From a virus, in the IMG/VR virus record IMGVR_UViG_3300027902_000006, positions 62,001 to 126,000 of that record: a stretch of 64,000 nt of DNA. One strand, 5' to 3'. The position numbers were made by a program, and so were the translations under genes. Within the stretch, counting starts at the first letter, position 1, and each line of letters begins with the position of its first letter. Shown in pieces: positions 33,144-62,232 of the stretch. Below the pieces are notes generated by a model. That model searched no databases. It saw only the letters and a program-made list of their open reading frames with translations, and had not been told where the DNA came from.

Positions 33144-34128
33144 TCAAGACCATAACGTGTTTAAAGTTCGGACCTGTAAACACACATCTGTCCTTTCCGA
33201 CAACCACGTCATGAGTAAAGTTTAGAATCTGTTCTAAGTAAAACGGATTAATAAAGATTTTAAACTCCGGACCTGTGTAGTCCACATCTAGTTCTTCCTC
33301 TACCCAACCTAACTCCTTTTGCCCTCGACAAGTTATCTTGCCAGTAGAAAAGACTAACTCAACTTTAGTCTCAAACGAAACTTCAGTAACGGTCATTATA
33401 CGACAACGTGCTAGTGCTTCTGTCATATCTGGAAGAGTGATTGTCGGGCCATCTACCATCGTATAACTCGCTATCTTTTCTTCGTCAAAAAACTCTTCTT
33501 CCATCTTCCGCACACTAAAAACCAAGCCTCCTGCCTTAAAATGAACCCAATTCTCATCAACAAGAAGATGCGTAGGATCGTACTTTTTAAGTTTTGACAG
33601 ACAAAACCCAGGCAGGAGAAAATCAAATGGACTAGGCTCTTGCAATATAATGTGAGTTACTCTATAGCCGTCTGAGCTTATTACAGAACGATCCTTAACA
33701 TGAACGCATGTAAACTTAGGACGTGTCATATTTTTACTCACGGAGAATTCTGACATCTTAATGGCAGAGAACAGATCGGGTGAAAAAGATTGCCACTCAC
33801 CTGAGACGCTAACCGGAGGATATGAAACCTCCAATATGGAAATTCCTGCTCTTACTTTTCCACAAGTCAAGCGGAACTCAGTTCCCTCTGTAAAGATTGT
33901 CACATCTTCACTAGGTAGTTTGGCAAGAATCTTTGTGAGTTCCTCTGCTCGCACTCCTCCGTCAACTCCCGACTCAAACGGAATGGAAACAAAGATTCCA
34001 TCATCAAATGTGACAATGTGATCGTTATGAAAGCGGAAACAGACATTCTGTTCAATGATATCTTTCTGTGCTAGTCCGGGTGAAAGTTTATTCAGTGTCT
34101 CTATCAGAGTCGATCTTTTTACATTCAT
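33133..34128 (-). CDS. DNA sliding clamp (beta clamp, DnaN-like)
   Basis: About 331 residues with the repeated alpha/beta pattern of a DnaN-type clamp: KILAKLPSEDVTIFTEG, SDGYRVTHIILQ (the conserved TDGxRL-like site) and FKIFINPFYLEQILNF (near-C-terminal). It would hold the polymerase on DNA. Its ribosome site is formed by the codons of the C-terminal tag of the preceding gene. Confidence 0.78.
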   Translation of the reverse strand: MNVKRSTLIETLNKLSPGLAQKDIIEQNVCFRFHNDHIVTFDDGIFVSIPFESGVDGGVRAEELTKILAKLPSEDVTIFTEGTEFRLTCGKVRAGISILEVSYPPVSVSGEWQSFSPDLFSAIKMSEFSVSKNMTRPKFTCVHVKDRSVISSDGYRVTHIILQEPSPFDFLLPGFCLSKLKKYDPTHLLVDENWVHFKAGGLVFSVRKMEEEFFDEEKIASYTMVDGPTITLPDMTEALARCRIMTVTEVSFETKVELVFSTGKITCRGQKELGWVEEELDVDYTGPEFKIFINPFYLEQILNFTHDVVVGKDRCVFTGPNFKHVMVLIDV

Positions 34129-34507
34129 CTGGAGTCTTTCTCCTCATTGTGATTTTAACTTTCGTTTTAGGTTCTAGTTCTATACTCCAATTGTAGTTAG
34201 AGTACCAATTCCCCCCCGTAGACCGCTCTACGGGTTGGTATGGTAAATGTGTTTCGTACATTCGAAATGTTGAAACCGGATCTGGAATCGGGGAGTAGGC
34301 CGATGGTAGTACCAGAGGTTCAGACGAACTCCCCGGCACTCCCCACGAATAGATACTAGTAGGGAATTCACGCCTAGACCAAGGAAATTCGTCAAAGGTA
34401 AGTTCAGATTCTTCTACAGTTCGGACTTCAGACGTTTCTTCGGTAGAAAAGAACTTACATGCTTTAGTTTTTCCTTTCTTCACCGCCCTCTTTTTACGTC
34501 GACGCAT
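34088..34507 (-). CDS. Hypothetical protein with the KITMRRK tag
   Basis: A basic start (RRRKKRAVKKGKTKAC), a Ser/Pro-rich middle and the peptide KVKITMRRK at about residues 115-125, followed by 15 acidic residues. The middle is likely disordered. It is coupled between the clamp loader and the clamp. The tag is shared with about 14 other proteins in this window. No family recognised. Confidence 0.6.
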   Translation of the reverse strand: MRRRKKRAVKKGKTKACKFFSTEETSEVRTVEESELTFDEFPWSRREFPTSIYSWGVPGSSSEPLVLPSAYSPIPDPVSTFRMYETHLPYQPVERSTGGNWYSNYNWSIELEPKTKVKITMRRKTPDECKKIDSDRDTE

Positions 34508-35426
34508 GATGAGTTACTCCTTGGTAACAAGCAAGTGTCAGACCAACTTCTTTAGTATGAAAGAATGGTTCCGAGAAGCACTCAATTAAGATTGCCGCTT
34601 GTCGATTAGGATGTTCCAACAACACGGCCTGACAATAGCGTAGTACAGCCCACCTAATCGCTTCTGGGTCTTTTTCTTTAAGACGAGTGAGAATAGATGC
34701 TACATCTTTCCAATCTGCCTTGTCCAAAAGAGCTTTGAGTAATTCTCTTACTGTAGATTCTTGGGAAGAACTCTCGATGGCTTCAAGCAACGCTCTTTCA
34801 TCGAGAATGTCTACTACTTTATCCAAGATCACTAATGCTTCACGAGGTATCCCGTGACAGACGTCTTCCCTACTGATTTGTTCTATAGCCTTCTTGGGGA
34901 AATCAGACACGCTAGCTGCTTCCAGTACGCTATTGAGTAGTCTGCGTATTTCTCCGGCCTTTAGAGGCTTAACTTCGAACCGTCTACACCGGGACAAGAC
35001 TGTCCCAGGAAGTTTGTCTGGATTCGTAGTACATAGAATGAATACGACATGCTTAGGAGTAAATTCTAGAGCATCTAGGAGACAGTCCCAAAAGTCACCC
35101 GTGGCTCGTTGGCACTCATTGAGTAGATAGATTTTGATGGGACCACCCATCGGTCTAAGTCGCATGTTACTATCAAGTTCTCTAGCTTGGTCTATCCCCC
35201 GTGTATTGGAGATATTCAAGTGGTGGAAGTCTATTTCGGCACAACCCATCATGTCCTTAACGATGTATGCCAAGGTTGTCTTCCCACAACCCCTTGTTCC
35301 AGAGAAAAGCAAAACTCTAGGTGGGTCTTCTGATGTTAGATTAAGTTGCAGAATCTCTTTTAAAGAGTCGTTTCCGAAAAACTCTCTGAGCGTCTTGGGT
35401 CTAAAGTCGATATGAAGTGGACTCAT
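34494..35426 (-). CDS. Clamp loader AAA+ ATPase (gp44/RfcS-like)
   Basis: Walker A VLLFSGTRGCGKTTLAYIV, Walker B region IKIYLLNECQRATGDFWDCL (Asn for the usual Asp) and the arginine-finger SRC motif in VLSRCRRFEV are all seen. It loads the sliding clamp at primer ends. The C-terminal helical collar has LEAIESSSQESTVRELLKAL. No small subunit was recognised nearby. Confidence 0.88.
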   Translation of the reverse strand: MSPLHIDFRPKTLREFFGNDSLKEILQLNLTSEDPPRVLLFSGTRGCGKTTLAYIVKDMMGCAEIDFHHLNISNTRGIDQARELDSNMRLRPMGGPIKIYLLNECQRATGDFWDCLLDALEFTPKHVVFILCTTNPDKLPGTVLSRCRRFEVKPLKAGEIRRLLNSVLEAASVSDFPKKAIEQISREDVCHGIPREALVILDKVVDILDERALLEAIESSSQESTVRELLKALLDKADWKDVASILTRLKEKDPEAIRWAVLRYCQAVLLEHPNRQAAILIECFSEPFFHTKEVGLTLACYQGVTHHAST

Positions 35427-35427
35427 T

Positions 35428-35583
35428 CTACTTCTCCATCATAACTTCTGGTAAATCATCCCGTCCGTAAGACTTGTAGCGCTGCGACCTAGCTCGATGT
35501 AGACAGTTCTCACAGAATTTAGTAAAGGTGGTTTTGGGTTCGTGACACCGAGCACACAAATTCTCATTTTGCTTTTTTGGCAT
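35428..35583 (-). CDS. Zinc-ribbon protein, 51 aa
   Basis: CARC and CENC form a ribbon, followed by basic residues (LHRARSQRYKSYGR). AAGGAG before the ATG. A longer frame exists but lacks a ribosome site. Confidence 0.55.
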   Translation of the reverse strand: MPKKQNENLCARCHEPKTTFTKFCENCLHRARSQRYKSYGRDDLPEVMMEK

Positions 35584-35761
35584 CTCTTGTACTCCTTGGA
35601 TGTTCCTTATTAGTACCATTGGCAAAATATTCCAATAGCCTTTCGTCTGTTTCGTTCTGTAAAAAGAAGTAGGACAGCAATCTGAACGGATATTGCGCTT
35701 CAGTTAACACATCACCTTGTGAATCCTCCTCTAACCAAGTGGCTGTGTAGATCTTTGTCAT
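35564..35761 (-). CDS. Hypothetical protein, about 65 aa
   Basis: ATG with AAGGGGG upstream; sequence MTKIYTATWLEEDSQGDVLT, then a helix LLSYFFLQNETDERLLEYFA. It overlaps the zinc-ribbon gene by 20 bases. No family recognised. Confidence 0.55.
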   Translation of the reverse strand: MTKIYTATWLEEDSQGDVLTEAQYPFRLLSYFFLQNETDERLLEYFANGTNKEHPRSTRDAKKAK

Positions 35762-61586: not shown

Positions 61587-61589
61587 CTT

Positions 61590-61748
61590 TTAGTTCTCGT
61601 TTTCAGTGATGAAGTTGATGTTAACTTTATAACTTCTCCTCACCTCTTCTAGGAAAAGGTACTCGGAAAGCAAAGTGGGTTTTTGACTTAGAGTTGTTGG
61701 TGATAGAGAAAGAAGCAGTTTTTCCAGTGCTTGTTCTTTAGTTATCAT
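61590..61748 (-). CDS. Hypothetical helical protein, 52 aa
   Basis: MITKEQALEKLLLSLSPTTL is a helix; the end is SYKVNINFITENEN. Its ribosome site GAGAGGAC is in the preceding tag gene's end. Fills a gap with clear coupling. Confidence 0.52.
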   Translation of the reverse strand: MITKEQALEKLLLSLSPTTLSQKPTLLSEYLFLEEVRRSYKVNINFITENEN

Positions 61749-61975
61749 AGAGTCCTCTCTTTTCGTTTCACGGTGATTTTAATGGGAGAACGCGCTATTA
61801 ATGTATTAGCACGAAGATATCTGTTCATGTCTTTGAACGTTACGGTGAAGACTGAGACGGGAGAATCTTCCTTATCTGTTTTTAAAGTTAGGACAGTGTT
61901 TAGAGGGTCTACAGTAGTTACTGTATAGAGTATCGCCTTATCTTTACTCGTGAATTGTTGGCCTATATAGAACAT
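61745..61975 (-). CDS. Small beta-rich protein with PIKITVKRK tag
   Basis: 76 residues, MFYIGQQFTSKDKAILYTVT and VFTVTFKDMNRYLRANTLI, then SPIKITVKRKERTL. The first part looks like an SH3-type barrel. Overlaps the next gene by four bases. Confidence 0.6.
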   Translation of the reverse strand: MFYIGQQFTSKDKAILYTVTTVDPLNTVLTLKTDKEDSPVSVFTVTFKDMNRYLRANTLIARSPIKITVKRKERTL

Positions 61976-61986
61976 TAAATTTTACC

Positions 61987-62232
61987 TCACTTTCTTCTCA
62001 TGGTGATTTTCACTTCTTCAGTGGGTAGGACCATTAGAATTCTGGTCCGAAGATGACTTCTGAGTACAAACTTAGAAAGTCTCGTTTCTTGTCGTGGTGA
62101 TGGATAATAACATTTTAAAGTGACCCATTTCTCGGAGACTGCTGTGACTAAAAACTTAAAAATTAATCTGTCTCCAGAAAAAACACATTGTCCGAGACGT
62201 TGGCCTACAAAGAATTCTTTCTTAGTTTCCAT
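61987..62232 (-). CDS. Small beta-rich protein with EVKITMRRK tag
   Basis: 81 residues: KKEFFVGQRLGQCVFSGDRL, FLVTAVSEKWVTLKCYYPSP, then VLPTEEVKITMRRK at the very end. Same barrel-plus-tag design as its downstream neighbour. ATG start. Confidence 0.6.
   Translation of the reverse strand: METKKEFFVGQRLGQCVFSGDRLIFKFLVTAVSEKWVTLKCYYPSPRQETRLSKFVLRSHLRTRILMVLPTEEVKITMRRK

Follow-up and report, generated by a model that had tools for sequence, protein, structure and literature searches.

A basic C-terminal peptide common to about 27 small proteins of an uncultured phage, probably a docking or sorting tag

Results

The IMG/VR record IMGVR_UViG_3300027902_000006 is an uncultured phage sequence of 140,478 bases, from which we analysed a stretch of 64,000 nucleotides (bases 62,001-126,000, referred to as the window). 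A series of small proteins encoded in this stretch carry, at or near the C-terminus, a basic motif of about nine residues that reads roughly P-[IV]-[KT]-I-T-[MQV]-[RK]-R-K, which we call the tag. In the whole record there are 27 carriers, 14 in the window and 13 just beyond it, and two or three of them are weak (Table 1). The carriers beyond the window comprise 12 clear matches within 16 kb in a profile scan of the record and a looser thirteenth. The tagged genes are all on the minus strand; one sits at 96 kb of the genome, and the others fall within 106-138 kb. They share this strand and region with the replication genes, and the head genes are in the opposite orientation. The first 60 kb of the genome, which hold the head genes, gave no clear match to the nine-residue profile.

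The tag forms the exact end of the protein in 9 of the 27 carriers, and 5-15 residues extend beyond it in another nine; the overall range is 0 to 15. Positions 6 and 7 of the tag are loose. An earlier note on this DNA, made from the sequence alone, had listed 15 genes with the motif. Each of them translates with the quoted peptide, although the copy in the HELGHH-containing protein and the internal copy are weak, and the DUF7296 protein has an insertion within the motif. The profile scan of the phage proteome, which the same note had proposed, confirmed the motif and raised the number of carriers to 27.

Table 1. Tagged genes of the phage. Positions are those of the window unless L005 or the genome is named; "+ n aa" gives the amino acids that follow the tag.
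Gene product	Position	Strand	Tag and remarks
Tagged protein between clamp and clamp-loader genes	34088-34507	-	KVKITMRRK + 15 aa; 28.8 bits
SH3-like protein	44081-44344	-	PIKITMRRK + 9 aa
SH3-like protein	44345-44632	-	PIKITMRRK + 9 aa
Tagged protein, no family assigned	44629-44889	-	PVTITMKRR + 3 aa
Tagged protein, no family assigned	45306-45629	-	PIKITQIRK + 8 aa
Predicted two-helix membrane protein	48501-48773	-	ends PTKITQRRK; hydropathy peak 2.24
Predicted two-helix membrane protein	48775-49068	-	ends PIKITQRRK; hydropathy peak 2.56
SH3-like protein	54867-55133	-	TFIITQRRK + 4 aa
DUF7296 protein (Pfam E=4e-27)	58056-58442	-	appended NIQITQQRRK + 1 aa; one-residue insertion (ITQQRRK)
Tagged protein, no family assigned	58417-58782	-	PITITITRK + 11 aa
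SH3-like domain, then internal tag, then ~95 aa	60098-60604	-	degenerate KITRTILQRRK; weak, 14.5 bits
HELGHH-containing (metallopeptidase-like) protein	60826-61344	-	weak TITIKKRLGK + 2 aa; 11.6 bits
SH3-like protein	61344-61586	-	NMKITCTRK + 6 aa
SH3-like protein	61745-61975	-	PIKITVKRK + 4 aa
SH3-like protein	61987-62232	-	ends EVKITMRRK
13 tagged genes outside the window	genome 130.8-137.8 kb (L005 6810-13795)	-	
Looser thirteenth tag among these	L005 9144-9434		ELDFTKRRK

The motif is far commoner at gene ends than expected. We scored a 9-column profile on the tails of 168 called genes and used 2000 residue shuffles as the null, which is fair but imperfect because tail shuffles preserve composition and not order. 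Tails scoring at least 12 bits numbered 24, against 0.19 per proteome in the shuffles, and at a threshold of 22 bits there were 21 against 0.0005. The earlier note had allowed that the motif might be no commoner than chance at gene ends, and these counts speak against that. Among internal windows, only 2 of 17,451 reached 12 bits. The leave-one-out scores of the tags were 11.5-31 bits. The tagged protein between the clamp and clamp-loader genes is outside the 24 tails since the simple gene caller picked an overlapping open reading frame. At the DNA level, a degenerate pattern for I-T-x-[RK]-R-K had 16 coding-strand matches across the whole record and none on the other strand, and the reversed pattern had none either. 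A tag-like SITVKRK also stands inside a 200-residue protein (window 41424-42026), about 80 residues from its end, and may be due to chance.

The codons of the tag indicate that the peptide itself is selected. For the near-invariant Ile and Thr, 84-100% of gene pairs share the first two codon bases, whereas the third base is the same in 31% (Ile) and 25% (Thr), the level predicted by codon usage. The residues at these positions agree between genes in 84% and 92%, respectively, and the conserved Arg is written as AGA, AGG, CGT, CGC, or CGA. Random wobble bases under conserved residues rule out a nucleotide repeat or recombination footprint and bear out the selection on the peptide that the earlier note had claimed.

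The tag could still be a by-product of DNA signals. Where genes are tightly packed, a Shine-Dalgarno site has to fit into the last codons of the preceding gene, and DNA rich in AGGAG spells R-R-K or K-E. The best Shine-Dalgarno match of the next gene indeed overlaps the tag codons in 15 of the 27 genes, and a Glu directly behind the tag is in many cases encoded by the GAG within AAGGAG. However, when the tags without such an overlap are matched to a profile of the other tags, they still reach 13-30 bits, and they are often spelled AGA CGT AAA or CGA AAA. The I-T half lies upstream and is enriched on its own, with 24 observed against 0.84 expected for the first six columns, and [RK]RK is found in just 4 of 137 untagged tails. 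The non-overlapping tags refute Shine-Dalgarno sites as the sole cause, and we consider a by-product origin very improbable. The Shine-Dalgarno site contributes in part to the placing of the tag and the codon choice of RRK, and it does not cause the tag, as the enriched six columns, the rarity of [RK]RK in untagged tails, and the matching of non-overlapping tags indicate. The earlier note had missed this overlap, which explains part of the RRK codons and of the position; its view that the peptide is selected gains from the same lines of evidence and from the DUF7296 homologues, which have no such extension.

We clustered the carriers after removal of the tag by BLASTP and an SH3 profile, which may miss remote homology. 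This gave 13 clusters, namely an SH3-like family of 14, a pair of alpha-beta proteins (L005 12790 and L005 13170), and singletons that include the two predicted membrane hairpins, the DUF7296 protein, and the HELGHH-containing protein, for which family searches returned no match. At this sensitivity, a single paralogous family with a conserved C-terminus is rejected. The 15 or so unrelated proteins of the earlier note are thus better described as about 27 carriers from about 13 families; the many families stand, and about half of the carriers are diverged members of the SH3-like family. In addition, two untagged SH3-like proteins (L005 9653-10336 and 11570-11779, genome 133.7-135.8 kb) end in PIFRVIKGF and PPFQIIEGF, which might represent another C-terminal tag, and these two are the only such ends in the genome.

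The median length of the carriers is 93 residues, the same as that of their untagged neighbours. Within the region, 26 of 72 proteins of up to 175 residues are tagged, compared with 0 of 15 longer ones (Fisher p=0.004), and the large enzymes are untagged. Counting the tag region, the carriers have a median net charge of +4, which drops to +0.5 once that region is left out; several carriers are strongly acidic, with body charges of -11 and -13. The DUF7296 homologues compared, from phages of Streptomyces, Streptococcus, Paenibacillus, and Synechococcus, have no tag in 5 of 5 cases. The tag was either added to this widespread domain or lost from it, and addition is most simply assumed because all five homologues are without it. 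A search of known phages with two of the tagged proteins returned no match.

In two unrelated families, the tag is predicted to be a loose tail outside the folded domain. The AlphaFold model of an SH3-like carrier is a five-strand barrel whose final strand runs to residue 65; behind it, the tag (residues 68-76) has no secondary structure, with the predicted local distance difference test (pLDDT) score falling from 72 to 66 across it. In the model of an alpha-beta protein, the final helix extends to residue 100, and the tag (residues 103-111) is coil with a pLDDT of 56-60. Both models are of moderate confidence and come from shallow alignments. The nearest solved folds of the barrel are Mib/HERC2 and KOW domains, where the SH3-like fold matches only weakly, at E ~0.01.

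The nearest relative (G001) has a polymerase 61% identical to that of the phage and is a 74-kb fragment corresponding to genome 37-105 kb. The sole tagged gene that can be compared is the one between the clamp and the clamp loader, where the two proteins are barely alignable and ITMRRK is the only conserved block. The AGGAG within those codons appears to be the Shine-Dalgarno site of the clamp gene in both phages. About 19 distant relatives, all fragments, were found by polymerase or helicase motifs (27-45% identical in polymerase or helicase), and none of them showed the tag, although the fragments of G003, G004, and G006 reach into the early module. When degenerate DNA versions of three tag patterns were compared with 2.9 million viral contigs, no further phage turned out to carry repeated tags. 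The patterns PIKITxRRK, IKITMRRK, and IKITQRRK hit 16, 9, and 8 stretches with one match each; these matches look chance-like, as they are single, mostly away from gene ends, and without a second tag in the retrieved stretch. Bacterial genomes searched with the polymerase contained no relative. As far as the collections show, the tag would be a local innovation, given that it is missing from the distant relatives and not repeated in other viral contigs.

A de novo search of the relatives for other common C-terminal motifs found only poly-threonine tails, in one relative. This phage, G004 (IMGVR_UViG_3300017613_002264; L055, L057, and L058), has long poly-threonine tails on five genes and a shorter tail (TTTTTTS) on a sixth, and Thr runs occur inside two large proteins, all on the plus strand. 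Their Thr codons are mixed (ACT/ACA/ACC/ACG), so that the residue, and not a DNA repeat, seems to be selected.

Discussion

Since the DNA spelling shows that the peptide itself is kept, the tag probably serves as a label for docking or sorting with which the phage has equipped its accessory proteins. More specifically, it may be a C-terminal docking peptide for a common, putative receptor in the cytoplasm, a proposal that we regard as evenly balanced. A short linear peptide on the loose tails of small accessory proteins, encoded on the replication side of the genome, would be bound by one receptor in the host cytoplasm, encoded by either the phage or the host. The alternating I-x-I-T would lie on the receptor as a strand in extended conformation, and acidic residues of the receptor would bind the R-K end. 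Binding would bring otherwise unrelated accessory proteins, two of them membrane-anchored, together in a single complex or location. We infer the single receptor, the strand addition, and the cytoplasmic site from several features. The alternation of hydrophobic and polar residues in P-I-K-I-T-M, as read from the sequence, suits an extended strand; the restriction of the tag to proteins of up to 175 residues fits recruitment of accessory factors and not of core enzymes; and the two tagged membrane hairpins suit a cytoplasmic docking site. As in short linear motifs (SLiMs), one short peptide recurs in unrelated proteins with conservation at the residue level, and in the two moderate-confidence models it is placed beyond the folded domain.

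Several points weigh against this proposal. The receptor is putative. The tail of 0 to 15 residues after the tag means that a free C-terminus is no part of the signal, and the loose positions 6 and 7 may imply low specificity. Part of the sharing reflects descent within the SH3-like family. Conservation over time comes from one gene in one relative, in which the RRK codons double as a Shine-Dalgarno site. In a bolder and rather doubtful version of the idea, the receptor, probably a clade-specific protein of the phage itself, would read the tag as an address label across the proteome and assemble more than two dozen unrelated small accessory proteins, among them the membrane ones, into a host-takeover complex or compartment, and new genes would enrol by acquiring the tag.

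The best rival to docking is a virion packaging signal, by which the tag would bring small effectors into the prohead for delivery to the next host together with the DNA. The capsid targeting sequence (CTS) of T4 provides the model, as the peptide alone targets the internal proteins IPI-IPIII and Alt (PMC3012670, PMC7411985), and the internal proteins of T-even phages are diverse small proteins with only the CTS in common (PMC3012670). Encapsulin shells, which have the HK97 fold (PMC8346489), likewise load cargo by short C-terminal peptides that the shell reads (PMC6668986), and the major capsid protein of this phage belongs to the GP7 family. The tag resembles the CTS in being a short peptide common to otherwise diverse small phage proteins. 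However, the CTS lies at the N-terminus, is removed by the prohead protease (PMC7411985), and serves four proteins in T4, whereas all 27 carriers have the tag at or close to the C-terminus; the tag is not known from virions, and its carriers include membrane proteins. The tag would act in the manner of a peptide for targeting or docking and, judged only by the protein end, is outside the T4 CTS family. Unlike encapsulin peptides, the tag has far more carriers and often stops short of the very end, and a shell that reads it is only hypothetical. The two predicted membrane hairpins would be unlikely cargo and weigh against packaging, one of the suggestions of the earlier note, as a universal role. 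The head-gene region is without the motif, and the tagged genes share strand and region with replication genes, opposite to the head genes. We therefore consider packaging unlikely.

C-terminal ClpX signals are read from the end. A degron that hands early proteins to a host protease, for removal at the early-to-late switch, would suit the presence of the tag on small accessory proteins and not on large enzymes. The nearest known sequence to the tag is the MuA C-terminus RRKKAI, which is read by ClpX (PMC8138137), and degrons such as MuA and ssrA are also defined C-terminal peptides on several proteins, basic in MuA. However, MuA is without the I-T core, the best-conserved part of the tag, and the residues that extend past the motif in many carriers depart from an element at the very C-terminus. 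A degron is thus quite improbable. General binding of nucleic acids or ribosomes by a basic tail, with no specific protein receptor, appears slightly less probable again. It would agree with the rise in median charge that the tag region brings and with the many SH3-like barrels, which weakly resemble KOW and ribosomal SH3 folds, but charge alone would not preserve I-T under random codons, and several carriers are strongly acidic. The import pathway of the phage nucleus (PicA) also sorts many phage proteins, but it recognises the protein surface, with no conserved signal sequence found (PMC11087766), and is for this reason not a close model.

Most small early phage genes are unexplained singly, and the finding of one receptor would place about 27 of them at once. 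If the docking proposal is true, new genes can be drawn into a shared phage system through the addition of a tag. T4 heads are a precedent for phage-coded sorting by a simple terminal signal, and our literature search found no precedent at this scale or at the C-terminal end.

Other features of the record

A scan for promoters in the tagged region found them no richer than in shuffled sequences. Two glutamine-amidotransferase-like/amidoligase_2 gene pairs lie side by side (window 62340-63995 and L005 340-5264), and a further amidoligase-like fragment was noticed by eye at L005 15842-16471. A role of the tag as a modification signal for such enzymes is weakened by the relative G003, which has such a pair and no tag. 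The window also contains a tRNA with the anticodon CTA (15439-15514; tRNA-Pyl according to ARAGORN), adjoining a tRNA-Gly. It could read UAG, and TAG is still the stop codon in 15 of the 69 called minus-strand window genes of at least 100 residues.

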